A stretch of 64,000 bases of DNA from Myxococcales bacterium (lineage in GTDB: Bacteria; Myxococcota_A; Polyangia; Haliangiales; Haliangiaceae), in NCBI GenBank assembly GCA_016720595.1, contig JADKKI010000028.1, forward strand, positions 1 to 64,000, in the 5' to 3' direction. Shown piece by piece: positions 1,335 to 61,887 of this stretch. Within the stretch, counting starts at the first letter, position 1. The number at the start of each line of letters is the position of its first letter. Made by a program: the position numbers and the translations under genes. The notes under the pieces are model-generated. The model did not search any database. It saw nothing but the letters and a program-made list of their open reading frames with translations, and was not told the DNA's origin.

Positions 1335-1340
1335 ACCTTA
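1335..1340 (-). promoter_or_regulatory. Putative -10 box (TAAGGT) of a leaderless promoter
   Basis: TAAGGT on the minus strand ends 9 nt before the ATG of the M28 peptidase gene. No Shine-Dalgarno fits between it and the start. It is one of a recurring set of TANNNT boxes in this window. Confidence 0.5.
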
Positions 1341-1358
1341 GCGAAGATCGCGCCGGGC

Positions 1359-2492
1359 TCACAGCCGATAGTGAAACTGGAGCAGCGAGTACCCGCCGGA
1401 CGGCCCGCCCTTGCCAAACGCGAGCATCTCGATGCGGTTGGTCAGCAGCAGCTCGACGTGCGAGTCCACGAACCAGTGGAGGTTGAGGTCCACGCAGTCG
1501 CGATCGAGGTTCTTGATCCGGAAGTTCGAGTCGTAGTGGCCGAGGCCCAGGTCGAGCAACAACGAGCTGCCGAGCATGCGCGAGGCGAGCAGGTAGCCCA
1601 CGAGCTTGAGCGGCGCGCCGCCGGCGGCGTTGGTGGGGCTGGTGTCGATGATCTTGTTCCCGTACTGGAGCTCGGCCTGCAGCACGAGCTTGGCCTCCGG
1701 CACGAACAGCTTGGCGGTGACGCCGCCGCCGAAGTCCTTGGCATCGGGGGAGCGCGTGAACATGCCCTCCCCGCCGAGGGCGAGGCGCTCGGTGGGCCGC
1801 ACCTCGGCATAAGCCATCACGCCGTTACTGTGCTCGACGGTGTCGATCAGCGGATCGCGGATGAAGCCGGTGAGGTGGCCCTCGTACTTCGGCTGGATCA
1901 GCGCCACGTGCGCGCCGTAGGTGTCGGCATACAGCTGCGTGCCGCCGTAGCGGCGCGTGTACACCGGGTGCTCGGCGAGCCGCAGGCCATAGACCGGCAT
2001 GAACCGGCCGACGCGCGCGTACACGCCGAAGTTCTCCCCCGGGTGCTGCTGCCACATCACATAGTGCTCGCGCGACCACACGTGCGTGGCGGCCTCGTTG
2101 CCGACCTGCGCGGGCCGCGGCGAGACGTTCGCGTGGATCGTGAAGTGCCCGATCGCGGCGTTCGCGTACGCCTCGTACTGCATCGGGAACGCGGTCAGCA
2201 CGCGGCTCGGTGCCTGGATGTAGCCGGCCGCGCTGCGGAAATCGCCGCCGAGGGTGAGCCAGCTCGGCGGGGTGAACGCGTTGTAGAAGAACTCGGGGGC
2301 CGTGCCCCACTGCGCCAGCGATTCGGCGACGGCGAGCCCGTTCTCGTTGAGGAGGTTCCCGCCCGCGGGCGAGATGTGACAGCCCGTGCAGGTCTGATCG
2401 CGATCGAGCTGGAACTGCGGATACGCCTGCGCATCGCCGGCGGTGGCCCACACCGTGAGCGCGAGCACGAGGAAGCCGAGGACGCGCTTCAC
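1359..2492 (-). CDS. Outer-membrane beta-barrel-like protein with one CxxCH haem motif
   Basis: The 377-residue protein starts at a GTG (MKRVLGFLVLALTVW...), chosen because it overlaps the upstream stop as GTGA and has GGGGAG upstream. A Sec signal ends near GDAQA. Right after the mature N-terminus is a single c-type haem motif, CTGCHISPAGG. The rest alternates short hydrophobic and polar strands and ends LLQFHYRL, as expected of an outer-membrane barrel. I do not recognise a named family; the CxxCH...GG..LLN arrangement is common in uncharacterised deltaproteobacterial and spirochaete envelope proteins. Coupling with the upstream haem lipoprotein suggests the two work together, perhaps in envelope electron transfer, which is inference. 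Confidence 0.7.
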   Translation of the reverse strand: MKRVLGFLVLALTVWATAGDAQAYPQFQLDRDQTCTGCHISPAGGNLLNENGLAVAESLAQWGTAPEFFYNAFTPPSWLTLGGDFRSAAGYIQAPSRVLTAFPMQYEAYANAAIGHFTIHANVSPRPAQVGNEAATHVWSREHYVMWQQHPGENFGVYARVGRFMPVYGLRLAEHPVYTRRYGGTQLYADTYGAHVALIQPKYEGHLTGFIRDPLIDTVEHSNGVMAYAEVRPTERLALGGEGMFTRSPDAKDFGGGVTAKLFVPEAKLVLQAELQYGNKIIDTSPTNAAGGAPLKLVGYLLASRMLGSSLLLDLGLGHYDSNFRIKNLDRDCVDLNLHWFVDSHVELLLTNRIEMLAFGKGGPSGGYSLLQFHYRL

Positions 2493-3022
2493 AGGCACTC
2501 CCCGGCGACGCAGGTCTTGCCCGTGGCGGTGCAGTTGTTGGCCTGGGTGAGCTTGCTCAGATCGTACGCGCCCTCCTCTCCCTTGCCGACGTCGGCGTGC
2601 TTGCAGGGCAGCTTGTAGTTGCCCAGGCACGCGGAGCCGCCGAGGTTGTTGCACACGCCCGGCGCGCCGGCGCGGAGCCAGTCCTCGATCAGCGCGACGT
2701 CGACATCGGGGAGCGGCGCGTTGTAAGGCATCCGCGGCGCCCCGGCTTGCTCGATCGTCAGGTTCAGGAGCAGCCCGGGAGTCTTGGTCGGATCGCTCTC
2801 CTCGAAGGCGATCAGCTGGATGTCGTTCTGGAACGTCGCTCGCGCGCCCTCGATCGAATCGAACACGAAGCCATCAGCGCCCTTGAAGGCGGAGTGGCAG
2901 GTCGCCGCTCCACAGCTCGGGACGAGGATGGCCTCGGTGATGTAGTCGAGGTTCCGGGGGCGCTCGTCTTCGCTCGTACCGCACGCGGCCAGTACAAGCG
3001 CGGCGATGGCAAGGCGCTGCAT
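2489..3022 (-). CDS. Cytochrome c-like lipoprotein with a CxxCH motif
   Basis: The 177-residue protein starts at MQRLAIAALVLAACG, a short lipoprotein signal with lipobox LAAC. The later of two in-frame ATGs is chosen because a TATCGT box lies 7 nt upstream of it. The mature part contains PSCGAATCHSAFKG, a CxxCH haem-attachment site followed by a small domain like those in planctomycete-type cytochrome c proteins. Near the C-terminus several Cys residues (CNNLGGSACLGNYKLPC) may form disulfides. It overlaps the downstream haem barrel gene by 4 nt. The partner redox enzyme is not in this window. Confidence 0.75.
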   Translation of the reverse strand: MQRLAIAALVLAACGTSEDERPRNLDYITEAILVPSCGAATCHSAFKGADGFVFDSIEGARATFQNDIQLIAFEESDPTKTPGLLLNLTIEQAGAPRMPYNAPLPDVDVALIEDWLRAGAPGVCNNLGGSACLGNYKLPCKHADVGKGEEGAYDLSKLTQANNCTATGKTCVAGECL

Positions 3023-3029
3023 GGAGCGC

Positions 3030-3035
3030 ACGATA
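3030..3035 (-). promoter_or_regulatory. Putative -10 box (TATCGT) of a leaderless promoter
   Basis: TATCGT on the minus strand lies 7 nt before the MQRLAI start of the haem lipoprotein gene and would drive the two-gene haem operon. It supports that start over the ATG eight codons upstream. Confidence 0.45.
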
Positions 3036-3070
3036 TCGCAGAGCACACCCGGCCGCGCGGAACGGCGCCG

Positions 3071-3607: not shown

Positions 3608-3842
3608 GACGAACGGATAATGCAGCCGCCACGCGGGAGGTCAAACAGGAAGCCCAAAACATCTTTCAAGAAGCTGAGATCGTTCACTTCACGCGCGATC
3701 CCACCGCTCCCGGTTTTTGGTGAGGCCCGGCACGCTTCGGCCCGCCGATCTGGCTCGTTTCAGTGCCTTCTCAGAAAGCTGCCCCAAGGGTCGGTCCCTT
3801 CCTTGACATTCGGGGTCCGGTTCGCCAGACCGGGGTCTCCGC

Positions 3843-4888
<1,046 letters not shown>

Positions 4889-4892
<4 letters not shown>

Positions 4893-10428: not shown

Positions 10429-10499
10429 TATAGACCGCCCCCTACAAGACCTCGCTCGCCCCCCGCCAGGGACGGGCTTCACACCCAAGAGGAAGCTAC

Positions 10500-11069
10500 A
10501 TGGCACGTCTGCAGAGTCAGAAAGACAAGCCGAACACGGCTCGCGAATACGAGACCACGTACATCCTGCGTCCCAACACGTCCAACGAGGGCGTCGCCGA
10601 GGTGAACACCCGCATCAAGGGGATCATCGAGGGCATGGGCGGCAAGATCGTCAAGGTCGACAACTGGGGCAAGCGCCGCCTCGCCTACGAAGTCGCCAAG
10701 GAGCGCAAGGGTATCTACCTGTACTGGCAGTACCTCGCGCAGCCGGGCGTCGTCGAGGAGACCGAGCGTAACCTCCGCATGCTCGATTCCGTGATCCGTT
10801 ACCTGACGGTCAAGGTCGACGAGGATGTCGATGTTGGCGCGCGTCCGTCGGAGATCGACGACACGTCCTACGAGAAGGCGGCCCAGACCGCGGCCGACGA
10901 GGAGGACATGTTCCTCTCGCGCGGCGGCGATGGCATGTCGTCTGACGAGAACGACCTGTACGGCGACGATGATGACGGCGATGTGATCCCGGGCTCGAAG
11001 AAGCCCGTTGCCGAGGCAGTCGAGGCTCCGGCCGCGGCCGCCGAGCCTGCCACCGAGGACAAGGAGTAA
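10500..11069 (+). CDS. rpsF: 30S ribosomal protein S6 with acidic C-terminal extension
   Basis: S6 binds S18 in the 30S platform. The core (about residues 15-115) shows YETTYILRPN, GGKIVKVDNWGKRRLAYEV and ERNLRMLDSVIRYLTVKVDE. A tail of about 75 residues is Asp/Glu-rich, including NDLYGDDDDGD, and ends Ala-rich; it is absent from E. coli-length S6. GAGGAAG precedes the ATG. A TATAGA at 10429-10434 may be a -10 element just past pth. It is the first gene of the conserved rpsF-rpsR-rplI-dnaB cluster. Confidence 0.96.
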   Translation: MARLQSQKDKPNTAREYETTYILRPNTSNEGVAEVNTRIKGIIEGMGGKIVKVDNWGKRRLAYEVAKERKGIYLYWQYLAQPGVVEETERNLRMLDSVIRYLTVKVDEDVDVGARPSEIDDTSYEKAAQTAADEEDMFLSRGGDGMSSDENDLYGDDDDGDVIPGSKKPVAEAVEAPAAAAEPATEDKE

Positions 11070-11932: not shown

Positions 11933-11938
11933 TACCTT
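11933..11938 (+). promoter_or_regulatory. Putative -10 box (TACCTT) before dnaB
   Basis: TACCTT ends 7 nt before the dnaB ATG with no ribosome-binding site between. It suggests dnaB is separately transcribed from a leaderless start after the rplI hairpin. Confidence 0.45.
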
Positions 11939-11945: not shown

Positions 11946-14591
11946 ATGTCACGCGACCGGAGAGTGCTTCCGCACAACCTGGACGCCGAGGCCTCGATCC
12001 TCGGTGGCGTGATCTTGCGCAACGAGGTGCTGACCAACCTCGAGTCCGTGGAGGTCGATGACTTCTACGACATGCGCCACAAGGTGGTGTGGCAGGCGAT
12101 CCGCAACCTCGAGGCGACCGCGAAGCCGATCGATGTCGTGACCCTCGAGGTCGAGATCGAGAAGCAGGGCAAGCTCGATGCGATCGGCGGCATCTCGTTC
12201 CTCGGTGAGCTCGCACTGCGCGTGCCCACCGCGGACAACGTGGCCACGTACGCGGAGATCGTCACCGACAAGCACCAGGCCCGCAAGCTGATGCTCGCGA
12301 CCAACGAGGTCCACGAGCGCGGGTACGAGGATGGCCTCGAGGTCCGCGACTACCTCGATGACGCCGAGGCGAAGATCTTCGAGGTCACGCAGCGCAAGGA
12401 CAAGGCCGGCCCCGAGCCGATCAAGTCGCTGGTCAAGAAGGTGTTCAGCTCGCTCGACGAGCGCTTCAAGTCCGCCGGCGGCATCACCGGCGTGCCGACC
12501 GGGTTCGCCGACCTCGACGCCAAGACCGCCGGCCTGCAGCCGACGGAGCTCATCATCCTCGCGGCACGTCCCGCGATGGGGAAGACCTCGTTCGCGCTGT
12601 CCCTCGCGCAGAACGCAGCCACGTCGGGCGGCTGGCCCTGCCTGGTGTTCTCGCTCGAGATGTCCTCGACCCAGCTCGCCGAGCGCATGCTGTGCTCCGA
12701 GGCGCGCGTCGATTCTTCCGCCCTGCGCCGCGGCCAGCTGCAGCGGCAGGACATGACGAACCTGACCTACGCGGCGGCCACGCTGTCGAAGGCGCCGATC
12801 CTGATCGATGACACCCCCGCCCTGTCGCTGCGCGAGGTCCGCGCGCGCGCGCGCCGGTTCCGCCAGAACAAGGAGCTGTTCGGCGACAAGAAGTTCGGCC
12901 TGATCCTGATCGACTACCTCCAGCTGATGCGCGGCTCTCCGCAGGCCGCGAAGGCCTCGCGCGAGCAGGAGATCAGCGAGATCTCCCGCGGCCTCAAGAG
13001 CCTCGCCAAAGAACTGCACTGCCCGGTGCTCGCGCTCTCGCAGCTCAACCGCTCACTCGAGCAACGCACCGACAAGCGGCCGCAGCTCTCGGATCTTCGT
13101 GAGTGCGTCACCGGCGACACCCTCGTGGCGCTCGCCGATGGGCGCCACGTCCCGATCGAGTCGCTGGTCGGCACCACGCCCGAGGTCATCGCGATGACCC
13201 CGGAGGGCCGGCTCACCACGGCGCACAGCGACAAGGTCTGGTGTGTCGGCACGAAGCCGATCTTCGAAGTGAAGCTGGCGAGCGGACGGAGCATCCGATG
13301 CACCGGCAAGCACCGCCTCTACGGCCCCGACGGATGGAAGCGCGTCGAGGAGCTAGCGGCGGGCGACCGCCTGGCGATCGCCCGCAGGCTCCCCGCGCCC
13401 GCCAAGCCGAAGCGCTGGACTGACGCCCGGGTGGCGCTGCTCGGCCAGCTGATCGGCGACGGCAGCTACCTGAATCAGCAGCCGATGCGTTACACGACGG
13501 AATCCGAGGACAACGCGCAGGCGGTCATCGAAGGCGCGACCGAGCTCGGCTGCACCGTCAAGCGCTACGCGGGTCGGCGAAGCTGGTTCCAGCTGCTGAT
13601 CAGCGGCAACGGAAACCGGTGGCACCCGGCCGGCGTCAACAAGTGGCTGCGCGGGCTCGGGGTGTTCGGGCAGCGTTCGCACGAGAAGCGCGTTCCGAGG
13701 GAAGTGTTCCAGCTCGACAACAAGCAGATCGCGCTGTTCCTGCGGCATCTGTGGGCCACGGATGGCTGCATCTGGAACGCGGTCCACGAGGACAGCTCCC
13801 GCGTCTATCTCGCGACCAGCAGCCTCGGCCTCGCCCACGATGTGGCGACCTTGCTGGCGCGGCTCGATATCGTGGGTCGAATCCGGCAGATCGCACAGGG
13901 CAAGTACAAGCCGCAGCATCCCGTCGACATCTACGGAGTCGAACAGCAACGTCGGTTCATCGAGGTGGTGGGGGCGTATGGCCCGCGCGTCGATCAGGCC
14001 GCAGCTCTCGAATGTTTCCTCGACGAGCAGCCGGTGTCGAACACGAACGTCGACACGCTTCCCATCGAGATCCTCGAGCGCGTGAAGCTCGTGATGGGGC
14101 AGCGTGGCATGGCGCCGATCCAGCTCGCACGCGCCCGAGGGCTCGCGTCCGCTGGAGGCATGTTCCGTCACGCACCCTCGCGCCCGCTCGTCGCCCGCTA
14201 CGCGGCCATCCTTGGTGACGATCAGCTCGCCCAGCGCGCAACCGACGATCTGTTCTGGGATCGCATCAAGTCGATCGAGCCTGCTGGCGAGGAGCCCGTG
14301 TTCGATCTGACCGTCCCGGAATTGAAAAGCTGGATCGCAAATAACGCTGTTATTTCACATAATTCGGGCGCAATTGAACAGGACGCCGACGTCATCATGT
14401 TCATCTACCGCGACGTCGTCTACAACAAGGACGCCGAGAACCCGAACGTCGCCGAGGTCATCCTCGGCAAGAATCGTCACGGCGCGACCGGCATGGTCGA
14501 GACCCACTTCGAGGGTCGCTACACGCGGTTCGAGAACCTGTCGCAGCGAACCGACGGCGGTGGCGGTGGCGGCGGCGGTGGCGGCTATTAG
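11946..14591 (+). CDS. dnaB: Replicative DNA helicase DnaB containing an intein
   Basis: DnaB is the hexameric replication-fork helicase. Of 881 residues, 386 (N-extein) plus 75 (C-extein) make the mature 461-residue helicase; residues 387-806 are an intein. N-extein features are [14 protein letters not shown], the Walker [21 protein letters not shown] and [11 protein letters not shown] ending SDLRE; the C-extein resumes [17 protein letters not shown]. The C-terminus is an unusual Gly-rich tail. ATG 11946 is preferred over the upstream TTG because it gives the normal [11 protein letters not shown] start and sits 7 nt after TACCTT. The gene is convergent with, and overlaps by 4 nt, the minus-strand PEGA gene. 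Confidence 0.97.
13104..14363 (+). mobile_element. DnaB intein with DOD (LAGLIDADG) homing endonuclease domain
   Basis: The 420-residue intein begins with Cys ([17 protein letters not shown], block A), has a TGKH block B, and ends AVISHN before extein Ser, the expected splice junction. Two endonuclease motifs are intact: [11 protein letters not shown] and [11 protein letters not shown], each with an acidic residue. It sits between SDLRE and SGAIEQDAD, the site used by the Synechocystis and Rhodothermus DnaB inteins. The 3' end (about 14321-14380) is strikingly AT-rich for this genome, and the bias continues into the first six extein codons, pointing to acquisition by homing with co-conversion of flanking DNA. 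Confidence 0.96.
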
Positions 14592-15903
14592 AACTTCTTC
14601 GCGACCGACGCGGCTCCGCCGGCGGGGACGTCGACCTCGGCGGTCTTGGCCTTGCGCGAGGTGATCTCGAGCAGCGTGATCTTGTGGCTGCCCGGGGACA
14701 GGCTCAACGTCTTCGGCGTCATCTGGTTGGTCGAGCGGCCATCGACGTAGATCAGCGCGGACGGGCTGCTGGTGATCGTGAGCTTGCCGGGGCCGGTGCC
14801 CGAGCCCTTCGCCGGGGACCGGGTCTTCGTGGGCTCGGCGAGCGCGACGGCGATCGGATCGGCGCCGCGCCGCGGCTTCGCAGCAGCGACCGGCTTGGGC
14901 TCGGCGCGCGCGACGCGGGCCATGGTGCGCGACGACGCGACGACGACGATGACGACGATGACCGCGATGATGACCGCTTGCTCGCGCGGTGGTGCTTGAC
15001 CACGGTGGTCGGCGCCATCTCGATCTCGGCTTCTGCGTCTGCGTCGGCTGCGACATCCGCGGCAGCGACGACCTCGCTGGTCGGCTCGGCCGCCACCTCG
15101 GCTACGGGCGCGACCGTGGCGACCGGCGCGACCGCCGCGACCTCGGCGACGGGTACGACCGCGGCGCCCGCGGCCGCCTCGGGTACCGGCGACGCGACGG
15201 GCGCTGGTGGTGACTCGACCGCCGGCGGCGACACCGTCATCACGATCGGGACCTCGCGCTTGTGGCCGCCCTGCCCGTTGTGGACGACGTAGCCGCCGAC
15301 GAACATCATCACGACCGCGAGGCCGGCGAACGGCAACGCGAGCTGCGACAGGATCGCGCGCAGCTCTCGCAACTCTCCGGCCGTGCCGGGTTCGGGCTCG
15401 GCGGCGGGAGGCGGCAGCGCCGCGACGCGCACGGTCTCGAGTCGATCGAACGGCCCTGCCGAGCGTGGCGGCGGCGCCTGGCGCGCGTGCCACTCCATCG
15501 CGGGGAGCGGGTCGTACTGCGCGACGCGCTCGGTGGCATCGACGGACGCGTGATACGGCATCGGAGGCAGCGGCGCCGGCGTCGGATACGCGTACTGCGG
15601 GAGGATCGGCTGCGGCATCGGCTGCGGCTGTGGCAACTGCTGCGGAGCGCTGCCCGCCGCGAACCTCGCCATCGCATGCGGATCCACCTGGGTCTCGGAG
15701 TCATCGTCCGCGTAGTCCTCGATCGGGACCGCGGGTGGCGTGGCATTCGGCGCGCGGCGACGTGGCAGCGGCGCCGGCATCGCGTGGGCTGGGGGCGCGG
15801 TCACGAACAGGTGGTCGTGCGCGACGTCCTCGCCGTGGTCGATGATCCGCCCCTGGACGAGGTGGATCAGGTCGTTGATCGCGGTCGATTCTTGCTTCGC
15901 CAT
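14588..15903 (-). pseudogene. Membrane-anchored PEGA-domain protein, apparently frameshifted
   Basis: From ATG 15903 (CGGAG upstream) the frame gives MAKQESTAINDLIHLVQGRI, a long Pro/Ala-rich region, a membrane segment LPFAGLAVVMMFVGGYVV (near residue 190) and another Ala/Pro/Val-rich stretch. Around 14930-14990 the frame enters a TCG/TCA repeat reading poly-Ser and becomes implausible. A second frame from the same point gives ARVARAEPKPVAAAKPRR and a PEGA domain (KLTITSSPSALIYVDGRS, LSPGSHKITL) ending at 14588. The intact protein would thus be a cytoplasmic-linker, membrane and PEGA protein of about 437 residues. It may be a genuine mutation, a slippage site or a base-call error. It overlaps dnaB's end on the opposite strand. 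Confidence 0.7.
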
Positions 15904-16063: not shown

Positions 16064-16069
16064 TAAGAT
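16064..16069 (+). promoter_or_regulatory. Putative -10 box (TAAGAT) of a leaderless promoter
   Basis: TAAGAT ends 6 nt before the GTG of the Ser/Thr kinase gene, in the 172-bp gap shared with the divergent PEGA gene. Confidence 0.5.
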
Positions 16070-16075: not shown

Positions 16076-17626
16076 GTGCCGAATCCCCAGCCCGGAACGA
16101 TCCTGGGCGCCTATCGCGTCGAGGGAACGCTCGGCTCGGGCTCGATGGGTGAGGTGTTCAAAGGCGTCGACACCGGCCTCAATCGCCGCGTCGCGATCAA
16201 GATCCTCAGCGAGAAGCACAAGGACAGCCCGGAGCTCCGCGCGCGGTTCGTGCGCGAAGGCCGCGCGGTCGCCGCGATCAGTCACCCGAACGTCGTGCAG
16301 GTGTTCGCGAACGGCCAGTTCGACGAGCGCCCGTACATCGCGATGGAGCTCCTCGACGGCACCGATCTCGGCACGACGATCGAGAAGAAGGGCCCGCTCG
16401 ATTCGCTGTCCGCCGCGCACGCGGTGCTCGATGCCGCGCAGGGGCTCGCCGCCGCTGCGAAGGCCGGCCTGATCCATCGCGACGTCAAGCCCTCGAACCT
16501 CGTGCGCCAGAGCGATGGTCGCGTGAAGGTCACCGACTTCGGCCTCGCCAAGCCCGTCGATCCGGGCGCCGAGCCGGCGCTCACCGCGATGGGCGTCGTC
16601 GTCGGGACGCCCGACTACATCGCGCCCGAGCAGGCGCGCGGCGAAGCGATCGACGAGCGCGTCGACATCTATGCGCTCGGCGGCACGCTGTACTTCCTCC
16701 TCGTCGGGATCCCTCCGTTCCGCACGGGCAAGCCGCAGGAGGACAAGTACCTGAAGGTCGTCGCACGGCACCTGCGCAATCCCGCGCCCGATGCGGCGGT
16801 GGCCAACCCATCGGTGGATCCCGAGCTCGCCGCGCTCGCACGCACGATGATGGGCAAGAAGCCCGCCGAGCGGCCGAACTACCCCGAGCTCATCGAGCAG
16901 CTCTCGGGGATCGTCGCGCGCCTCGATCCCGGCTCGGTCCCGATGCTGATCAACTCGGCGCGTGAACGCTCGCGCCCGAACATGATCCTGTCGCCCGACG
17001 GCGGCGCGCCGCTACAGAGCGCGCTCGATCAATCGGCGACGATCAGCGATGGCGGGCACGACTTCGCGACCCCGCGCGCGTTCCCGGGCTGGCTCGTGTT
17101 CGTCACGCTCGCGAGCCTCGCGCTGTTCGCGGCCGGCCTCGTGGTGTATCTGCGCCGCGGCACGGGCTCCTCCCCAGGAACCGCACCGCCCACGCCGGCC
17201 GACGCCGCGGTGTCTGCCGGAAGCGCCGATGCGGGCGCCAAGCCGGTGGCCCCGATCGGGATGCTCGCGGTGAAGAAGGCCGACGGCACGGTCGCGTTCT
17301 ATGTCGATGCGCAGCCGCTGGCCGTCAGCGTGTTCAAGAAGTTCGATCCGAAGCACGAGCAGGACGGCAAGCCCGACGCGCCGGTGGTCAACGTCTCGTA
17401 CAACCAGGCCCGGTCCTACGTGACCACCCGTGGTGGTCGGTTGATGACGAGCGCCGAGTGGGAGGCGGCCGCGGTCACCCCGGGCTTCATCATGCCGCCC
17501 AGCATCCTCGAGTGGGTGGACTCGCCCGACGAGAAGAACAAGACCGCGCGCTCCCATGGCAAGACCGTGATCCGGGCCGACGAGACCCAGAAGGACGTCA
17601 CGTTCCGCATGGCCCGGAACCCCTGA
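16076..17626 (+). CDS. Transmembrane Ser/Thr protein kinase with degenerate FGE-sulfatase-like sensor domain
   Basis: The 516-residue protein has a PknB-type kinase: [11 protein letters not shown] loop, VAIKIL lysine, HRDVKPSN (catalytic Asp near residue 136), DFGLAKP and [14 protein letters not shown] membrane helix lies at about 336-358 ([20 protein letters not shown]). The C-terminal ~130 residues, outside the membrane, carry pieces of the formylglycine-generating-enzyme fold: [35 protein letters not shown] and FRMAR. This domain is much shorter than a full FGE domain and has no Cys, so it is probably a binding or sensing module, not an enzyme. It is divergent from the PEGA gene. Confidence 0.92.
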
Positions 17627-17679: not shown

Positions 17680-17685
17680 TATAGT
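17680..17685 (+). promoter_or_regulatory. Putative -10 box (TATAGT) before deoC
   Basis: TATAGT ends 9 nt before the deoC ATG and would drive the five-gene nucleoside operon. It is close to the consensus TATAAT. Confidence 0.55.
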
Positions 17686-17694: not shown

Positions 17695-19943
<2,249 letters not shown>

Positions 19944-22886: not shown

Positions 22887-23378
22887 TCACGTCATTCGTA
22901 GTGCCGCGTGAACGCGGTGGATCTGGTCGAAAGATGGGATCCGCGCCGGTTTCCGCACTTGCTCCAGCGCGACCCGCATCTGGGCGGCGCAGCGGGCCGG
23001 CTCCATGCCACCGATTCCGGTGGCGAGCCCGCAGCACACCAGTGAGCGGATCGGGGGGGGGGGGGGGACCCAGGAGCGTTGAGGAGGAGCAAGGGGCGTG
23101 GCGCCACCACAGCCAGGGCCAGCGTGCTCCCGGACCACACTCGGGGAGCTCACCAGGTGCTCGTGCTGTGCGTCCCGGACGTCGAATCCGAGGGTGTCTC
23201 GGATGACGAGATCGAGCCCACCATCCATGATCCCGAAGCTGTTCGCCGGGCTCACCATCGCGTCGGCCGGCGTCGCGAAGTAGTCGCCTTCGATCACCTC
23301 GACGTTCTCGACATCCGCGAACGTCCGCTCCCAGGCACGGACCGTGGGAGCGTGGTGGTCGACCAGCCGGATCATCAT
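22887..23378 (-). pseudogene. Macro-domain protein with scrambled central region
   Basis: The start ATG 23378 lies 7 nt after TATGGT. The N-terminal half is a recognisable macro domain (ADAMVSPANSFGIMDGGLD with the ADP-ribose-binding Asn/Gly loop), and the C-terminal part (LVCCGLATGIGGMEPARCA) is also family-like and in the same frame. Between them, about 23050-23160, the reading frame gives a Pro-rich stretch unrelated to macro domains. Other frames there show fragments such as GELP and LLLLNAPG, suggesting compensating indels, and a run of 15 Gs lies inside. Either the gene is broken or the sequence is wrong here. An intact protein would bind ADP-ribose. Confidence 0.6.
23053..23067. repeat. 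Homopolymer run of 15 G
   Basis: The run sits inside the scrambled part of the macro-domain gene. Such runs are unstable and hard to sequence; it is the likely cause of the local frame damage or a marker of poor assembly. Confidence 0.9.
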
Positions 23379-23385: not shown

Positions 23386-23391
23386 ACCATA
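23386..23391 (-). promoter_or_regulatory. Putative -10 box (TATGGT) of a leaderless promoter
   Basis: TATGGT on the minus strand ends 7 nt before the ATG at 23378 of the macro-domain gene, back to back with the promoter region of the ferritin-like gene. Confidence 0.45.
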
Positions 23392-25505: not shown

Positions 25506-26110
25506 CGGAGCTCCCCCGAAGCTGCGAGGTCGGCGAGATCGGCGACCGTATCGACATCCCGGACCACCGCGCGATCGGGGACCGCGATCCGCACCACGTC
25601 TGCCGTGGCCAGCACCGCACGTGCGCCACCCTCGAGCGCGTCGCACGCCGCGAGGCGCGACCACACGGCACGCGCGACCAGCGGTGGGTGCCCGCCGCGC
25701 TCGCCGAACCGCGGCTGCGCGACCTCGTGACTGCCGAGCCCTGCGATCAGCGTCTCGAGCGTACGCACCTCGACCGCCGGATGATCCACCGGCCACAGCC
25801 ACGCCGCATCGAGATCGTACGCGCCGATCGCGGCGAACCCGAGCGCGATCGAGCTCGCCATCCCGCGCTCGGGGTGCGGGTTGATCACGAGGTCGAGATC
25901 GCGGTCGAGATCAAGCGCACGGGCGGCGGCGCTGACCTGCTCGGCGTGCGGGCTGCCCACCACCACGACCAACCGCGAGGTGCCGGCGCTGCGTGCGATC
26001 CGTGCGATCCGTGCGAGGTAGCTCTCCGCGCCGATGCGCAGCAGCGCCTTGGCGACGCCGCCGAGCCGCGAGCCCGCACCGGCCGCCAGGATCACCGCGC
26101 CGAGCCTCAC
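25502..26110 (-). CDS. MobA/MocA-like nucleotidyltransferase
   Basis: The 202-residue protein has the NTP_transf_3 opening AVILAAGAGSRLGGVAKALL and a WPVDHPAV metal-binding Asp. MobA/MocA enzymes join GMP or CMP to molybdopterin. Pairing with an XdhC gene (ATGA overlap) supports a molybdenum-cofactor role. No molybdoenzyme is in the window, so the client must be elsewhere. Confidence 0.85.
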   Translation of the reverse strand: MRLGAVILAAGAGSRLGGVAKALLRIGAESYLARIARIARSAGTSRLVVVVGSPHAEQVSAAARALDLDRDLDLVINPHPERGMASSIALGFAAIGAYDLDAAWLWPVDHPAVEVRTLETLIAGLGSHEVAQPRFGERGGHPPLVARAVWSRLAACDALEGGARAVLATADVVRIAVPDRAVVRDVDTVADLADLAASGELR

Positions 26111-27105
26111 GCCGGCTCCGGGCGCCGCGGGGTCCAGTCACCGACCCTGCCCGCGCTGCGGCGGCGCGCCACCAGCTCCGCCGCGATCGCGATCGCGATC
26201 TCCTCGGGAGTCTCCGCGCCGAGATCGAGGCCGATCGGTGCACGCAGGCGCGCCCATCGCGCCGCGCCGAGCTCGCCGTCGAGCAGGCCTCGCGCCTCGA
26301 GCCGCTTGCGGAACCGCCCGACCTTGCCGCGGCTGCCGATCATGCCGAGGTAGCCGAGCTCGTCGTGAGCGATCAAGGCCTCGAGCAGGCGCTGATCGAT
26401 CGCGTGATCGCGGGTCACGATCAGCACGTGATCCTCGGGGCCAAACCCCTGCACGAGCCGCTCGACCTCCGCGGCATCGAAGGTCTCGTGGACCTCCGTC
26501 GCCCACGCCGGCCGCTCGCCGGTGGCGCCGGTCTCGCCATCGTCACAGGCGATCACGGTGAAGCCGAGGTTCGCCAGGAGCGGCCCCAGGTTCCGCGCCA
26601 CATGCCCGAGGCCGAACACGATCGCGCGCTCGGTGGCGCCCACGCGCTCGAGCATCACGCCATCGCGCAGCTCGGGCTGATGCGGCTGCGGATCCCCGGG
26701 GCGCGGCGGCCGCACCGAGAGCGGCTCGCCTTCGATCGGCGTCAGCAGCACCTGCGGCGCGAGGGAGCTGGTCACCGCGACGAGCGTGGCGCGCGACGGC
26801 CCGGCGGGCGTCAGCACCACCTCCATCGAGCCTCCGCAGCACATCGCCAGATCACGGACCAGATGCTGGCGAACCACACGTGGCGCAGCGCCGCCGGCGA
26901 CCTCGCGCGCGGCGAGCACCACGAGCTGCTCGATCCGACCTCCTCCGACCGTCCCCCACTGCTCGCCATCACTCGCGACCGCCATCCGCGCGCCGAGGTG
27001 GCGTGGCGTGGAGCCGTGCGCACCGATCACGCTCGCGATCGCCACGCCGCGCCCCGCATCGAGCGCCCGCAGCGCCTGGGCGAAGACGTGGGTTCGCGGC
27101 GACAT
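26107..27105 (-). CDS. xdhC: XdhC/CoxI-family molybdenum-cofactor insertion protein
   Basis: XdhC proteins bind and sulfurate Moco and deliver it to xanthine dehydrogenase-type enzymes. The 332-residue protein has GVAIASVIGAHGSTPRHLGA, GTVGGGRIEQ, MCCGGSMEV and a C-terminal Rossmann-like part with VFGLGHVARNLGP and LGYLGMIGSRGKV. The ATG at 27105 is preferred over the upstream one (27126) because TAGGTT lies 7 nt before it. It overlaps the MocA gene by 4 nt. It is divergent from the zinc-ribbon gene with back-to-back -10 boxes. Confidence 0.88.
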   Translation of the reverse strand: MSPRTHVFAQALRALDAGRGVAIASVIGAHGSTPRHLGARMAVASDGEQWGTVGGGRIEQLVVLAAREVAGGAAPRVVRQHLVRDLAMCCGGSMEVVLTPAGPSRATLVAVTSSLAPQVLLTPIEGEPLSVRPPRPGDPQPHQPELRDGVMLERVGATERAIVFGLGHVARNLGPLLANLGFTVIACDDGETGATGERPAWATEVHETFDAAEVERLVQGFGPEDHVLIVTRDHAIDQRLLEALIAHDELGYLGMIGSRGKVGRFRKRLEARGLLDGELGAARWARLRAPIGLDLGAETPEEIAIAIAAELVARRRSAGRVGDWTPRRPEPA

Positions 27106-27112: not shown

Positions 27113-27118
27113 AACCTA
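27113..27118 (-). promoter_or_regulatory. Putative -10 box (TAGGTT) of the xdhC leaderless promoter
   Basis: TAGGTT on the minus strand ends 7 nt before the xdhC ATG. It lies only 12 bp from the opposing -10 box at 27131, so the two divergent promoters cannot easily be occupied at once. Confidence 0.5.
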
Positions 27119-27130: not shown

Positions 27131-27136
27131 TATGAT
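27131..27136 (+). promoter_or_regulatory. Putative -10 box (TATGAT) of a leaderless promoter
   Basis: TATGAT ends 6 nt before the ATG of the zinc-ribbon gene, facing away from the xdhC box. Confidence 0.5.
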
Positions 27137-29001: not shown

Positions 29002-29007
29002 TATCCT
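29002..29007 (+). promoter_or_regulatory. Putative -10 box (TATCCT) before the S55 protease gene
   Basis: TATCCT ends 8 nt before the ATG. A GGAG also falls in the gap, so here either a leaderless start or a very short leader with a ribosome site is possible. Confidence 0.4.
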
Positions 29008-36634: not shown

Positions 36635-37824
36635 GGACTGGCCACCCGCGGAGAGATCCGGAACCGGGACTGGAAGAACAGCGGCCCCGGGAAGCCAGCG
36701 ACGCCATCGATCAGCGTGTCCCCGAACGGCGGCATGCAGATCAGGTTCGCGAGCTGCGAGATGTAGTAGCCATCGTGGACCTCGGCCGCGCCTGTTGCGA
36801 CGATCGTCCCCGAGTCGGGGAAGCACGGCGTGGTCGCCGCGTTCGAGCAGTGACCGCGCTGCGTCGCCGGGTCCCAGACGCAGGTGCCTGGTGAGGCGCA
36901 GGCGTGGTTCGCCGTGACATATGCGACGTTGCCGGGCCCGGTGGCGGCCCCGCACGTGGTGTTGTTCGGGCAGTTGCTGTTGCTCTGGCACGGGTCGCCG
37001 TTGCTACACATGCCACACCAGCACTTCTGCGCCGTCCCTGTCGGAGAGGTGCACTTCGGCCGCGTGCTATCGAGCGTCCACGCACGGGATCCGGTGGTCG
37101 TGCCGTTCGCCGGGAGCGGGATCGTGATGCCTCCTGCGGACACCGGGCAATCGAAGCTCGTGAAGCTCGAGGTCTTGGTCCCGATGCCGTTGACGTCGCA
37201 CATGTTGCCACCGATGGAGCAGGTGCCGCCCTTGACGCCATCGAAGGTAGCCGGGTCACCGTTGCACTGCTTGCACTGCTCGAGCACGACCTTGACGGCC
37301 ATGTTCATCACGGACATGTCGAGCTCGCCCGTCGCGAGATCGATCACGCCCTGCATCGGATCCCCCGAGCCCACGCTGGATGCGGGCGGCTCGAAATAGA
37401 CGATCGCGCAGGTCGGGACGATCAGCATCGACGAGATCGGGGGAAAGATGAACCGACAGGCACCCGTCGGGCACTCCGCATCGGCGGTGCAGGTCTTGCT
37501 GATGTCGTCGAGGCAGCGCTGGGAGACCACGGGCTTGACCACGGGATCCGAGCGCACCGGGCCGCGGATCTTGCAGCGCCGACAATCGCTATCGCAGTCC
37601 GAGACCTTGACGGTCGTGTCCGATCCGATCGCGAGACCGAGACCGTGAGCGGCTCCCTTGTACCCGGGATCGAACCGCGAGTTCTGACCGATCAGCTCCA
37701 TCTCGAGGTGGGTCGGGCACGCTCGGGCGATCGCATCGCCGACCGGTGGGAGCGGAGCCTCGTGCGATCCACACGCAGCCCACGCGAGCACCGCCAGCAT
37801 CACCTGCAGTCGTACGAAAACCAC
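36631..37824 (-). CDS. Cys-rich hypothetical lipoprotein
   Basis: The 397-residue protein starts at GTG 37824 (MVFVRLQVMLAVLAWAACGS), chosen because TACAGT lies 8 nt upstream and because it gives a proper lipobox. Many Cys residues fall in short repeats with Asn/Ser/Pro (CQSNSNCPNNTTC), suggesting a disulfide-rich secreted protein. The C-terminal region, VATGAAEVHDGYYISQLANL, is less Cys-rich. No named family is recognised. It heads the operon with the second lipoprotein, kinase and TPR protein. Confidence 0.72.
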   Translation of the reverse strand: MVFVRLQVMLAVLAWAACGSHEAPLPPVGDAIARACPTHLEMELIGQNSRFDPGYKGAAHGLGLAIGSDTTVKVSDCDSDCRRCKIRGPVRSDPVVKPVVSQRCLDDISKTCTADAECPTGACRFIFPPISSMLIVPTCAIVYFEPPASSVGSGDPMQGVIDLATGELDMSVMNMAVKVVLEQCKQCNGDPATFDGVKGGTCSIGGNMCDVNGIGTKTSSFTSFDCPVSAGGITIPLPANGTTTGSRAWTLDSTRPKCTSPTGTAQKCWCGMCSNGDPCQSNSNCPNNTTCGAATGPGNVAYVTANHACASPGTCVWDPATQRGHCSNAATTPCFPDSGTIVATGAAEVHDGYYISQLANLICMPPFGDTLIDGVAGFPGPLFFQSRFRISPRVASP

Positions 37825-37832: not shown

Positions 37833-37838
37833 ACTGTA
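37833..37838 (-). promoter_or_regulatory. Putative -10 box (TACAGT) of the kinase operon
   Basis: TACAGT on the minus strand ends 8 nt before the GTG start of the first lipoprotein. It supports that GTG and would drive the whole four-gene operon. Confidence 0.45.
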
Positions 37839-44475: not shown

Positions 44476-44505
44476 TTGTCACGGCTCGCTGACAACTGAT
44501 AGGGT
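44476..44505 (+). promoter_or_regulatory. Putative promoter (TTGTCA-18-TAGGGT) of rnhA
   Basis: TTGTCA (44476-44481), an 18-bp spacer and TAGGGT (44500-44505) end 7 nt before the rnhA ATG. It is one of the few TANNNT sites here with a recognisable -35. Confidence 0.55.
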
Positions 44506-44512: not shown

Positions 44513-45154
44513 ATGCCGTGGATGCCACATCGCCTGCGTGACGCGGACGTGTGGGCCAAGGTCGACGCCTCGGGAACCCTGATCAAGGACACCGAGGGCC
44601 GCGTCGAGGTGGTCTACAAGGCCGGCGCCGGCGCCAAGGTGTATCGCGCGGGTGCCCGGAACCTGACCGCCCTCACCGGCCCCGTCCTCGACTTCGAGGC
44701 CGGTGAGCGCGCCCCGGAGAAGGGGAAGGCCGGCGCCATTCCGGCGGTTCCAGACAATGCGATCCACGTCTGGACCGATGGAGCGTGCTCGGGAAACCCG
44801 GGGCCCTGCGGGATCGGCGTGATCGTGATCGATGGCAAGACCGAGCAGGAGATCTCCGAGTACCTCGGACAGGGCACCAACAACATCGCCGAGCTCACCG
44901 CGATCCTCCGCGGTCTCGAGAAGGTCAGCGATCGCAAGCGCCCGGTCGTCGTGTACTCCGACTCGGCGTACTCGATCGGCCTGCTCACCCAGGCGTGGAA
45001 GGCCAAGGCCAACAAGGAGCTCGTCGAGGAGCTGCGTGGCCTCACCAAGCAGTTCGCCGATCTCCGGTTCGTGAAGGTCGCGGGCCACGCGGGCATCGTG
45101 CTGAACGAGCGCGTCGATGTCCTCGCGACCTCCGCGGTCAGCCGCCGCCGCTGA
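44513..45154 (+). CDS. rnhA: Ribonuclease HI with N-terminal extension
   Basis: RNase HI cuts RNA in RNA-DNA hybrids. The catalytic domain (about residues 82-213) has WTDGACSGNPGPCGIGV (Asp), TNNIAELTAILRGLE (Glu), VVYSDSAYSIGLL (Asp) and LNERVDVLA (Asp). About 80 extra N-terminal residues (MPWMPHRLRDADVWAKVDAS and YKAGAGAKVYRAG) are not the usual hybrid-binding domain. It converges with the NodB gene with four bases between stops. Confidence 0.93.
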   Translation: MPWMPHRLRDADVWAKVDASGTLIKDTEGRVEVVYKAGAGAKVYRAGARNLTALTGPVLDFEAGERAPEKGKAGAIPAVPDNAIHVWTDGACSGNPGPCGIGVIVIDGKTEQEISEYLGQGTNNIAELTAILRGLEKVSDRKRPVVVYSDSAYSIGLLTQAWKAKANKELVEELRGLTKQFADLRFVKVAGHAGIVLNERVDVLATSAVSRRR

Positions 45155-55338: not shown

Positions 55339-55747
55339 TCGCCCGCAGCATCGTCCCCACGACCGGCAGGGTCTCGTAGAACCCACCGGCGGCGTCGAAC
55401 AGATCCGTGTGGTGCGTGATCCGCCCGTCGGCATCGAACCGCAGGTGCGTGACACCCGGGACCGTCTTCTGCGGATCCTTGGCGCGCCGCCGCCACTCCC
55501 ACCGCCATCTCACGTACGACCCGTCGTCCCCGGTCGCGGTGTCCTCGACGATGAACCGACTCTCGTCGAGCGCCGTGAGCACCCGGCTGAAGTAGGCGCG
55601 CAGCGCGACGAAGTCTCCGCGGATCGCGTGGAACGCATCCTGGAACTCGAACCCCGGCGCGTAGAGCTCCTCCACGCGCTCGATCCACGCAGGGGAGAAC
55701 TCGTCATAGAACCGGCGGAACCGCGCGAGCGCTTCGCCCGCGCTCAT
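55322..55747 (-). CDS. SnoaL/NTF2-like protein
   Basis: The 141-residue protein matches the small NTF2-fold family: MSAGEALARFRRFYDEFSPA, GFEFQDAFHAIRGDFVAL, SYVRWRWEWRRRAKDPQKTV and HLRFDADGRITHHTDLFDAA. Members are cyclases, isomerases or ketosteroid-type proteins; the function here is unknown. The ATG shares one base with the stop of the upstream gene (TGATG). Confidence 0.82.
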   Translation of the reverse strand: MSAGEALARFRRFYDEFSPAWIERVEELYAPGFEFQDAFHAIRGDFVALRAYFSRVLTALDESRFIVEDTATGDDGSYVRWRWEWRRRAKDPQKTVPGVTHLRFDADGRITHHTDLFDAAGGFYETLPVVGTMLRAIKKRL

Positions 55748-56358
55748 CAGTTCCACAGCTTGTTCGAGAAGTTCGCGTGAGCGAGCTCGATCAGATCGGG
55801 CTCCTGGTGATACTCGGCGAGCGCGACCAGCAGCTCGCTGGCCTCACCAGCGGCGATCGCATCGGCCCACACGGTGTCCGACTTCGTGGCCCACATCAGC
55901 TCGAGGTTCGAGCGAACCTCGGCGCGGAACACGTCGGTCAGCAGCTCGGGCGGCGCGCCGAACCCGACCACGCGGCGGAGCAACGACCGGCGCAGAACCT
56001 CTGCCTCGCCGAGCCGGCCGGCGACGAACGTGACCATCAAGGCGCCGATCAGGCAGGCCCCTGCGATCGGGCTCATCCACAGGTACCGATCGTGGGCCCA
56101 GATCGCCGGAGCAGCGAATAGCAGCACCAGCGTCCAGCTGAGCCAGCGGGCGTACCCGAGCAGCACGGACTGCCGGTGCAGCGGGATCTTGATCCGCTGC
56201 TCGGACCCATCCGCGGCGCGGATCACGTACGCCGAGTGCTCCGGCCAGATCGGCAGGATCACCCGGTAGAAGCTGGTGACCACGGACTCGTGTTCGAGCC
56301 GATCGATGACGCCGTAGTCCTCGGTCCGGAGCCAGCTCTCGCCCTCGATCGTCTGCAC
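55747..56358 (-). CDS. Hypothetical protein with two membrane segments
   Basis: The 203-residue protein starts at GTG six nt after TAGCCT. It has a soluble N-terminal part (MQTIEGESWLRTEDYGVIDR), two hydrophobic segments, WLSWTLVLLFAAPAIW and AGACLIGALMVTFVAG, and a helical acidic C-terminal domain that may be cytoplasmic. No family is recognised. It is coupled to the SnoaL gene. Confidence 0.6.
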   Translation of the reverse strand: MQTIEGESWLRTEDYGVIDRLEHESVVTSFYRVILPIWPEHSAYVIRAADGSEQRIKIPLHRQSVLLGYARWLSWTLVLLFAAPAIWAHDRYLWMSPIAGACLIGALMVTFVAGRLGEAEVLRRSLLRRVVGFGAPPELLTDVFRAEVRSNLELMWATKSDTVWADAIAAGEASELLVALAEYHQEPDLIELAHANFSNKLWN

Positions 56359-56364: not shown

Positions 56365-56370
56365 AGGCTA
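56365..56370 (-). promoter_or_regulatory. Putative -10 box (TAGCCT) of a leaderless promoter
   Basis: TAGCCT on the minus strand ends 6 nt before the GTG of the two-TM gene. It faces away from the TAGGGT box at 56401. Confidence 0.45.
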
Positions 56371-56400: not shown

Positions 56401-56406
56401 TAGGGT
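56401..56406 (+). promoter_or_regulatory. Putative -10 box (TAGGGT) of a leaderless promoter
   Basis: TAGGGT ends 7 nt before the ATG of the 141-residue hypothetical gene, the same sequence and spacing as before rnhA. Confidence 0.5.
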
Positions 56407-56413: not shown

Positions 56414-56839
56414 ATGACGATGGACGTCGACCCGACCTCGTGGCATCGGATCTCGCAGGTCGTGCTCGAGGCCGCGCGCGGAGACGAGCGCACGGCCCTG
56501 GCCCTCCTGCAGGGCTGCTACCTCGAGCTCGCGAGCCGCGTGGTCGTCGCCGAGCAGGCGAGCACGCACTGGCTCGATGGCATCGCCACGTTCTGCCAGG
56601 TCGCGGCTGATCGGCTCGGAGATGAGGCCAGCTACTTCGTCGGCGCCACCCGCGGCCAAGGGGTCCTCGACGAGGCCCAGCGCCTCGGCAAGCTGCAGGG
56701 CGCGCACGAGGAGGCCACCCGGTTCGCCATGCAGCTGCGCGCGCGGTTCGAGACCTTCGAGCAGACGCGGTCGCCCGGGCTCACGGACGAGCCCACGGAC
56801 GAGCTCACGGACGACAGCGCTGTTCTCGAGCTCGGCTAA
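56414..56839 (+). CDS. Hypothetical helical protein
   Basis: The 141-residue protein is largely alpha-helical (MDVDPTSWHRISQVVLEAAR, AALLQ-type helices, EEATRFAMQLRARFETFEQT) and ends acidic with DEPTDELTDD. No signal, membrane segment or family is recognised. It converges with the methyltransferase gene. Confidence 0.55.
   Translation: MTMDVDPTSWHRISQVVLEAARGDERTALALLQGCYLELASRVVVAEQASTHWLDGIATFCQVAADRLGDEASYFVGATRGQGVLDEAQRLGKLQGAHEEATRFAMQLRARFETFEQTRSPGLTDEPTDELTDDSAVLELG

Positions 56840-57749: not shown

Positions 57750-57753
<4 letters not shown>
57562..57753 (-). CDS. yacG: YacG-like zinc protein
   Basis: The 63-residue protein has the YacG zinc pattern C-x2-C then C-x3-C (MTRACALCKKPAIKEGNKFW, PLCSERCHLVDLGMWLGEEY, RVPG). 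In E. coli YacG binds GyrB and inhibits gyrase. Its ATG overlaps the stop of the PocR-type regulator by 4 nt (ATGA), an unusual neighbour for yacG, which elsewhere sits near coaE/zapD. Confidence 0.85.
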
Positions 57754-59201
<1,448 letters not shown>

Positions 59202-59209
59202 CGCGCGCC

Positions 59210-59215
59210 ACTATA
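59210..59215 (-). promoter_or_regulatory. Putative -10 box (TATAGT) of the sigma-54 regulator
   Basis: TATAGT on the minus strand ends 8 nt before the GTG start and overlaps the end of the neighbouring MBL gene. It would drive regulator, yacG and methyltransferase. Confidence 0.5.
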
Positions 59216-59217
59216 GC

Positions 59218-60096: not shown

Positions 60097-60185
60097 ACGC
60101 TACGACACCCCAACGCTGCCCGAGTCCGCTCGCAAAGAGGGTGACGCGAGCGCGTGCATCTCCTAGACTATAGGCAAGCGACCCC

Positions 60186-60467: not shown

Positions 60468-60473
60468 CGCGGC

Positions 60474-61430
60474 CTACCGTGTCGTTGGTGCCGGCGGCAC
60501 CGGCGGCACCAGCATCTGGCCGAGGCCGCGGACCTCCGCGGAGCCGAGCGTCTTCACGAACAGCATCGGCAGCTCTGCGATCGGTGTCTTCGCGCGCTTC
60601 GCGAGCTCGCCGAGATAGTGCGCGTTGAGCGCGCGGCGATCGCGCGACAGGCTCCCGTGCGCGGCGACCTCCGCGAGCGGCGTCGCGAGCGTGGGATCCG
60701 CGAGCAGCGCATCGAGCACGCGCGCGAGCGGCGTCCCGGTGGGGAAGTGATCGGGATAGACCTGGTTGACCACCAGCTGCTGCGGGACGATGCCGATCGC
60801 GGACAGCTTGTCCTCGAGCTCGATCGCTTCGTTGACCGGCATCTCCTCGGCGAGCGTGACCAGCACCGCCGCGGTCTGCTTGGGATCGATGAGCAGGGTC
60901 TTGACCGCGCGAGCGTCGCGGGTGAGCGGACCCTCCGGAACGGTGTCGACGATCACCCACGGCACCTTGAGCATCGAGACCGAGTGTCCCGACGCGGGCA
61001 TGTCGAACACCACCGTGTCCCACACCGGCTTGCCCTTCTTCTCTTCCTTGGCGTGGAACCACGCCTTGCCGAGCAGTGCGTAGTCATCGAGCCCGGGGAT
61101 GGCGCGGAGGAACGCGCGGGTCACGCGGTTCTCGAACACCATCTCGTAGACGCTCTTGAACTTGAGGATCATGAGGCCGTACTCGGCGAGCGCCGAGGCC
61201 GGGGTCGCATTGACCGCCCACAGGTTCGCGGCGAGCTGCACGGGTTCGCTGCCTACCGGCGGCTTATCGAAGTAGTTCCCGAAGCGGTCGTTGGCGTTGG
61301 TCTCGTAGAGCAGGGTCTTCTTGCCCCGTGCAGCACACTGCCCCGCGATCGCCGCGGCCACGGTGCTGCGGCCCACGCCGCCCTTGCCGAGCACGAGGAT
61401 CAAGCGGCGGTCGTACAACGACGCGGTCAT
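60474..61430 (-). CDS. ArsA/GET3-family ATPase
   Basis: The 318-residue protein has the deviant Walker A LGKGGVGRSTVAAAIAG, where the P-loop Lys is Arg but the signature Lys earlier in the loop remains, as often seen in actinobacterial and myxobacterial ArsA-like proteins. Further motifs are VFDMPASGHSVSM and VVNQVYPDHFP. It lacks the second ATPase half of E. coli ArsA and may bind tail-anchored or other membrane proteins. It overlaps a lipoprotein gene by 4 nt (ATGA). Confidence 0.87.
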   Translation of the reverse strand: MTASLYDRRLILVLGKGGVGRSTVAAAIAGQCAARGKKTLLYETNANDRFGNYFDKPPVGSEPVQLAANLWAVNATPASALAEYGLMILKFKSVYEMVFENRVTRAFLRAIPGLDDYALLGKAWFHAKEEKKGKPVWDTVVFDMPASGHSVSMLKVPWVIVDTVPEGPLTRDARAVKTLLIDPKQTAAVLVTLAEEMPVNEAIELEDKLSAIGIVPQQLVVNQVYPDHFPTGTPLARVLDALLADPTLATPLAEVAAHGSLSRDRRALNAHYLGELAKRAKTPIAELPMLFVKTLGSAEVRGLGQMLVPPVPPAPTTR

Positions 61431-61843
61431 GGCGTCTTCGGAGCGGGCGCGGGCGTAGGTTGCACGGGCACGGCCACGGGCTTGTCCTCCACCACCACGG
61501 CTACCCCGGACGCCTCTGCGCTGCGGTACCCGAACAACCTTCGCAGCACCCACACGCCGTCGTCGGGGGTGATGTCGACCTGGATGTTGACGACCTTGTC
61601 GGCTCCGAGAGCCTTGGCGGCAGACAGCAGCATCCGGTTGACCACGCGATCGAGATCGACGTGGCCCGGGATCGGGATGAACAGGAAATAGGCGCTGGTG
61701 ACCTGCGCGTGGACCACCGCGATCGGTCGCAGGTTCGGGCCGACGTACAGGGACTCGGGCTGCACGCGTACCGTGGAGACCGAGGAGCAGGCCATCGCGA
61801 CGATCGTCACCATGGCGAGTGCGAGGCTCCGGGGCCAGGACAT
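61427..61843 (-). CDS. Hypothetical lipoprotein
   Basis: The 138-residue protein has a lipoprotein signal ending VAMAC. Its mature part includes a YFLFIPIPGHVDLDRVVNRM segment and LGADKVVNIQVDITPDDGVW, like other small lipoproteins of unknown function (possible DUF domain), and a Pro/Ala-rich end. TAGCGT lies 6 nt before the ATG. It is cotranscribed with the ArsA-like gene. Confidence 0.65.
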   Translation of the reverse strand: MSWPRSLALAMVTIVAMACSSVSTVRVQPESLYVGPNLRPIAVVHAQVTSAYFLFIPIPGHVDLDRVVNRMLLSAAKALGADKVVNIQVDITPDDGVWVLRRLFGYRSAEASGVAVVVEDKPVAVPVQPTPAPAPKTP

Positions 61844-61849
61844 GTGCGC

Positions 61850-61855
61850 ACGCTA
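61850..61855 (-). promoter_or_regulatory. Putative -10 box (TAGCGT) of a leaderless promoter
   Basis: TAGCGT on the minus strand ends 6 nt before the ATG of the lipoprotein gene, back to back with the TAGGAT box at 61882. Confidence 0.45.
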
Positions 61856-61881
61856 ACACGGCGACTCCGGGCCAGCGATGA

Positions 61882-61887
61882 TAGGAT
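61882..61887 (+). promoter_or_regulatory. Putative -10 box (TAGGAT) of a leaderless promoter
   Basis: TAGGAT ends 8 nt before GTG 61896 and supports that start over ATG 61878, which would place the box inside the coding region. Confidence 0.45.

Follow-up and report, generated by a model that had tools for sequence, protein, structure and literature searches.

Leaderless genes with a TANNNT box about 12 bp upstream of the start codon have been described in Actinobacteria and Deinococcus-Thermus (Zheng et al., 2011; PMC3160421), and for Deinococcus radiodurans experiments are reported in which the open reading frame (ORF)-adjacent -10-motif served leaderless genes as a promoter element (PMC12340547). 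More broadly, the StartLink paper cites a prediction that 21.6% of bacterial species use leaderless transcription (Lomsadze, 2018, as cited in PMC9581028). Here, we describe the same hexamer a few nucleotides (nt) before sixteen start codons in a 64-kb stretch of DNA (GC 69.0%; hereafter the window, meaning the whole stretch), which by sequence comparison is from a Kofleriaceae-like member of the Myxococcota. The box is probably a -10 element from which transcription begins on the start codon or no more than a few nt from it.

In 2011, the class delta-Proteobacteria still contained the myxobacteria. In the survey of that year, 8 of 33 genomes from this class have leaderless genes, with a mean share of 15.8% (5.7-20.6) (PMC3160421), so the preliminary description of the window was not quite right in knowing of no report for this group; its statement that such starts are known for actinobacteria and Deinococcus agrees with the literature (PMC3160421; PMC12340547). 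The names Haliangium, Sorangium and Myxococc- are absent from the main text of the survey, where the species behind the count go unnamed (PMC3160421); that the eight genomes are myxobacterial is our guess. Among the titles and abstract beginnings of the matches listed in the open-licence literature, nothing on leaderless starts in myxobacteria was found except this survey, and the part of PMC10783764 that was available does not treat the subject.

The boxes of the window and its relatives resemble those of the survey in the TANNNT form given there for GC-rich genomes, in distance and in share (Actinobacteria mean 19.2%, here 13-22%; PMC3160421). With D. radiodurans they have in common a GGAG motif as the other class of start, whereas that organism belongs to another phylum, in which the share is higher, at about 30% of ORFs (PMC12340547). 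Mycobacterium tuberculosis is reported to have an extensive leaderless transcriptome, for which TANNNT is mentioned, but there the transcription start sites were mapped (PMC3898074), while leaderlessness is deduced here from sequence. The kind of start is thus already known; what is added to a mere count of genomes is detail at the level of the family and footprints in orthologues, and no family-level account came up among the matches listed in the open-licence literature.

Enrichment at start codons of the window

All sixteen TANNNT hexamers that the preliminary description had placed in the window are present at the positions and on the strands assigned to them, with an ATG or GTG 6-9 nt downstream of every one. 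Fifteen of the linked start codons are in frame with genes called blindly, that is, from codon usage alone with upstream signals ignored. The sixteenth (27143, +) opens a 156-amino-acid frame that the caller missed and that matches Pfam Zn_ribbon_TFIIB (E 2.2e-8). Box and blind call agree on the start codon in eight cases; in seven, the blind start lies 12-33 nt off, and there the box-linked starts look plausible, with signal- or lipoprotein-like N-termini by eye; the box-linked start of dnaB is also found in relatives. Start calls that ignore the boxes can therefore err here, codon usage having chosen another codon for 7 of the 15 called starts.

Before counting, genes that ran to a contig end, had an open start or scored too low were dropped (score threshold 25 for blind-start, pooled and breadth counts and for the start-freedom count of divergent genes, 15 for the start-freedom count in the window), and the all-N stretches L130 and L135 were left out. 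Counted from blind starts, TANNNT stands at 5-9 nt in 9 of the 61 genes of the window where 0.98 are expected, which bears out the enrichment claimed earlier, and nine A/T-permuted motifs reach 1-3 genes each. Eight of the nine boxed genes are among the sixteen; the ninth has TAGTCT before GTG 4889. When any in-frame start within 90 nt is allowed, 15 of 65 genes are boxed (14 of the sixteen plus 4889), against 1-5 genes for each permuted motif and 3, 4 and 8 for TANNNA, TANNNG and TANNNC, respectively. The chance rate proposed earlier, once in 70 genes, comes near the background measured in the relatives, about 1 in 109 (8.2 in 894 genes for a 4-nt window).

Position, motif and gene placement in relatives

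The window and 11 relatives, 12 sources in all, contributed 894 genes to the pool (G numbers are handles of compared genomes, L numbers of compared loci). A check for a positional peak, set beforehand as a refutation test and run on stretches of the relatives, gave a sharp TANNNT peak at 6-9 nt. Pooled counts at spacings of 6, 7, 8 and 9 nt are 60, 39, 21 and 30 over a background of 2.37 per position, that is, 150 boxes with the first T at -12 to -15 where 8.2 are expected; at 5-9 nt there are 156 boxes (11.8 expected) in 155 genes. TA[TC]NNT, which has no stop codon at TA, peaks likewise (29, 21, 13 and 19 at 6-9 nt; background 1.41). In a scan of three-letter patterns with gaps of 0-4, TANNNT at 6-9 nt tops the ranking both for the whole pool and for its divergent genes, while Shine-Dalgarno (SD)-like patterns (GAG, GNAG, GGA) head the overlapping genes, and GAG and GGA lead in the metagenome-assembled genome (MAG) Myxococcales MAG-90 (G041).

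By source, the genes boxed at 5-9 nt (background in brackets) number 38 of 197 in G004 (2.5), 30 of 134 in G017 (2.2), 26 of 206 in G022 (1.6), 21 of 96 in G009 (1.0), 11 of 73 in G010 (1.6), 5 of 40 in G021 (0.1), 6 of 24 in G006 (0.5), 4 of 19 in L007 (0.2), 2 of 17 in L001 (0.2), 3 of 17 in G024 (0.4) and 1 of 10 in G025 (0.4). G006 is the single lower-GC source (57% GC) and has the box too, though with 24 genes only. The boxed share is 13-22% in the six sources with at least 60 genes, and about one gene in six has its box so near the start codon that the mRNA probably begins there. Boxed genes start with ATG (104) or GTG (51) and never with TTG, which the caller penalises. Relative to the box, positions -2 and -4 are enriched in G, and positions -3 and -5 in T. 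Neither an extended -10 of the strict TRTG form nor a TTGAC -35 was found as a feature of these starts, each occurring with 1 of 156 boxes.

The box follows gene placement. It precedes 69 of 275 divergent genes (25.1%) and 5 of 174 overlapping genes (2.9%); by distance to a same-strand neighbour, it precedes 20.0% of 115 genes at 1-20 nt, 22.4% of 76 at 21-50 nt, 16.8% of 143 at 51-150 nt and 14.1% of 99 beyond 150 nt. That a boxed gene is the first of its transcription unit can only be inferred, because the 1-20 nt class shows boxes close behind same-strand neighbours. An SD-like site occurs in 12% of unboxed divergent and 56% of unboxed overlapping genes. With free choice of start, 84 of 257 divergent genes have TANNNT, against 14.2 on average for the permuted motifs and 33 of 257 for the best of the nine, TNNNAT. 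Unboxed divergent genes also have an excess of TANNNC (20 vs. 4.5 expected) and TANNNA (10 vs. 1.7) at 6-9 nt; such degenerate boxes may add to the class, and counting TANNNT alone may underestimate the number of leaderless or SD-free starts.

Orthologue footprints

Five boxed window genes were traced into up to 24 relatives, the window being counted once per gene, and second copies per genome and loci with a missing N-terminus or a start not found were left out. The box is kept at 5-9 nt in 68 of 96 orthologues: 19 of 25 genomes for dnaB, 13 of 22 for rnhA, 14 of 22 for xdhC, 16 of 19 for deoC and 6 of 8 for orf56358 (gene 55747-56358). In the control, rpsF, no box but an SD-like site is found in all 23 genomes. 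The T, A and T columns of the box are identical by construction; this does not hold for the middle of the deoC box (TATAGT), which is conserved at 77-88%. The flanks at -50 to -7 are 28-35% identical, where about 28% is expected from base composition by our own arithmetic, and positions -6 to -1, next to the box, are 29-43% identical, with 70% among the six orf56358 rows. Because flank identity is near random, what is conserved is the box and its distance. Where the start codon has shifted by 9-24 nt, as extrapolated from BLAST alignments, the box moves along and the spacing is kept (xdhC in G021, G023, G024 and G025; deoC in G006 and G021; orf56358 in G013 and G023). Outside Kofleriaceae, 5 of 33 dnaB loci have a box at 5-9 nt when every candidate start within 75 nt is considered, so that the dnaB footprint looks family-level.

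Two further observations concern these genes. Among the loci left out, deoC in L274 and L275 has TATAGT a short way ahead of an ATG that lay slightly beyond the range searched. Before rnhA in several relatives, a block reading ttataaca or ctataaca lies upstream of the TANNNT box or replaces it (L207, L208, L209, L211, L212, L213, L218, L220 and L228) and is possibly a second -10 or an operator.

A probable -10 element at the start codon and its alternatives

How could a box so close to the start codon act? Ordinary promoters of the housekeeping (sigma-70 type) class would have TANNNT as their -10 element, and RNA polymerase would begin on the first base of the start codon or no more than a few nt from it. 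With 6 nt between the last T and the codon, +1 would coincide with the codon's A or G; at 7-9 nt, transcripts would begin at the start codon or have a very short leader. Such an mRNA would lack an SD leader and be read from its 5'-terminal AUG or GUG. This mode would serve genes able to lead a transcription unit, and overlapping operon genes would use SD sites. Where the box lies, how its motif ranks, which genes carry it and how it persists in orthologues all agree with this leaderless reading, to which we give a probability of about 0.86, and they likewise speak for the earlier suggestion that leaderless mRNAs are widespread here.

Several points weigh against it. Pooled counts lack independence, as the same orthologues recur among the relatives, and blind starts include errors. 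Spacings of 10-12 nt are also raised (8, 8 and 9 vs. 2.4 per position); transcripts from them may have leaders of several nt, and across the range of 8-12 nt as a whole leaders might be a few nt long. The context of the box is only modestly above that of TANNNT elsewhere upstream, some of which may be real leadered promoters: G at -2 occurs in 87 of 156 boxes and 50 of 117 controls. The -35 signal is weak, with TTG 24 nt upstream in 11 of 156 cases, and TTG anywhere in -25 to -21 in 17 of 156 against 15 of 117 controls. Among orthologues, 28 of 96 are without a box at 5-9 nt. Finally, an SD-like 4-mer occurs at 12 of 155 boxed starts against 244 of 739 other genes, but permuted motifs without TANNNT at the same place also have few (41 of 161 for all nine, 9 of 79 for the four ending in T, where genes may count repeatedly). 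SD depletion is thus largely an effect of any A/T motif at that place; it was dropped as independent evidence after this test, and its partly mechanical nature slightly lowers our confidence in the leaderless reading.

It is conceivable, if unlikely, that the box is a -10 element whose transcripts start slightly before the codon and carry a leader of 3-15 nt, leadered though SD-less. The excess at 10-12 nt would fit such short leaders, as would the deoC box, which lies 10-12 nt from the start in G023, G024 and G019; however, the peak stands exactly at 6 nt (60 of 156 boxes), the spacing for +1 on the start codon, and 10 of 19 boxes do so in the Acidimicrobiaceae used as a positive control. Alternatively, the box might be no promoter at all but part of a normal leader, where it would enhance translation as an A-U-rich element, e.g., a ribosome or S1 binding site. 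Its location where a ribosome-binding site would be, and the rarity of SD sites at boxed starts, would suit this role, which is nevertheless very improbable, since the permuted A/T motifs are far less enriched in divergent genes (33 at most vs. 84 of 257) and the box is rare in precisely those overlapping genes (5 of 174) that need translation signals and not promoters.

Chance or start choice, given the many candidate starts in GC-rich DNA or upstream TAG and TAA stops that supply the TA, can be virtually discounted. Seven of the sixteen starts do differ from the blind start and one gene went uncalled, but blind starts alone give 9 of 61 against 0.98, full freedom gives 15 of 65 against 1-5 for permuted motifs, TA[TC]NNT peaks too, and a Myxococcales MAG of 70% GC run through the same caller has no peak. 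Start-choice, stop-codon and GC artefacts were rejected on these grounds; the peak in relatives and the orthologue footprints speak against them as well.

Breadth in Myxococcota

Outside the Kofleriaceae clade, samples are small, with 9-133 genes per genome. Boxed genes exceed background in G031 (10 of 65; background 1.7), G027 (4 of 15; 0.1), G037 (3 of 23; 0.2), G035 (2 of 11; 0) and G038 (3 of 21; 0.8), and stand at background in G053 (1 of 39; 1.2) and G129 (1 of 33; 1.0). In G041 ('Myxococcales bacterium isolate new MAG-90', 70% GC), there is no peak (3 of 133 genes vs. 2.7). G029 has 2 of 48 (0.5), and G034 and G032 have 0 of 13 and 0 of 11, which places them in neither group; the named Myxococcales loci L009 (0 of 9) and L014/L015 (0 of 14) have too few to judge. 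The Acidimicrobiaceae control has the same profile as the pool (19 of 81 vs. 1.6), three actinobacterial loci give 4 of 51 (vs. 0.3), and Clostridia show no peak (5 of 75; background 17.5).

The balance tips slightly towards a broader picture, in which the genes that lead transcription units in Kofleriaceae start leaderless, SD sites serve mainly overlapping operon genes, and the mode is present in some lineages of Myxococcota and absent from others. If so, the phylum would offer a comparative test in which gain or loss of leaderless initiation could be followed box by box in orthologous genes. In any case, a group of myxobacteria joins the known cases, with about one-sixth of its genes, including dnaB, probably read without a leader.

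Placement of the window

The DnaB extein of the window is 67-85% identical to those of four MAGs labelled Kofleriaceae (L001, L005, L006 and L007) and 76-89% identical to L002-L004, which are labelled Myxococcales or Deltaproteobacteria only; among genomes known by handle only, identity reaches up to 95%. In a 23-row DnaB tree, the window groups with G010 and G009 (support 95/93), within a ten-row clade (100/98) that also holds G004, G006, G017, G021, G022, G024 and G025. One MAG labelled Kofleriaceae has G006 as its genome, and we infer that the remaining genomes of the clade are members too. NCBI places the family in Myxococcota, Polyangia, Haliangiales. No tRNA genes were found in the 64-kb window.

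The sixteen starts

On the forward strand, TACCTT (11933-11938) lies 7 nt before the ATG of dnaB (11946-14591; blind start 18 nt off), TAAGAT (16064-16069) 6 nt before the GTG of a Ser/Thr kinase gene (16076-17626) and TATAGT (17680-17685) 9 nt before the ATG of a deoC-like gene (17695-18618). TATCCT (29002-29007) stands 8 nt before the ATG of an S55-peptidase-like gene (29016-30902; blind start 33 nt off), TAGGGT (44500-44505) 7 nt before the ATG of the RNase H gene rnhA (44513-45154), and TAGGAT (61882-61887) 8 nt before the GTG of a PEGA-domain gene (61896-62810; blind start 12 nt off).

On the reverse strand, TAAGGT (1335-1340) is 9 nt before the ATG of an M28 peptidase-like gene (369-1325), and TATAGT (59210-59215) 8 nt before the GTG of a sigma-54 activator-like gene (57750-59201). 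Three boxes precede genes with lipoprotein-like N-termini by eye: TATCGT (3030-3035), 7 nt before the ATG of gene 2489-3022 (blind start 24 nt off); TACAGT (37833-37838), 8 nt before GTG 37824 of gene 36631-37824 (21 nt off); and TAGCGT (61850-61855), 6 nt before the ATG of gene 61427-61843 (30 nt off). TATGGT (23386-23391) is 7 nt before ATG 23378 of gene 22887-23378, which has a low coding score (blind start 12 nt off).

Two divergent pairs carry a box on each side. TAGGTT (27113-27118, -) lies 7 nt before the ATG of the xdhC-like gene (26107-27105) and TATGAT (27131-27136, +) 6 nt before the ATG of the zinc-ribbon gene (27143-27613) that codon usage did not call; TAGCCT (56365-56370, -) lies 6 nt before the GTG of orf56358 and TAGGGT (56401-56406, +) 7 nt before the ATG of gene 56414-56839. 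As a contrast, rpsF (10500-11069, +) has an SD-type leader at 10487-10499 and no box. The additional TAGTCT (4876-4881, +) stands 7 nt before GTG 4889, and the gene it precedes overlaps the end of the ferrochelatase gene; this box is either an internal promoter or chance.

The dnaB gene (+) contains an intein with a LAGLIDADG endonuclease domain (Pfam). The distribution of the intein among relatives seems patchy, because similarly long dnaB frames occur in G004 and G016 (880 and 908 amino acids), while the other relatives listed with a near-full match and a DnaB identity of at least 67% have 455-533 amino acids. Immediately 3' of dnaB, at 14588-15292, lie low-complexity frames that the codon-usage caller resolves poorly, of which 15005-15292 is rich in Ser, Ala and Thr.

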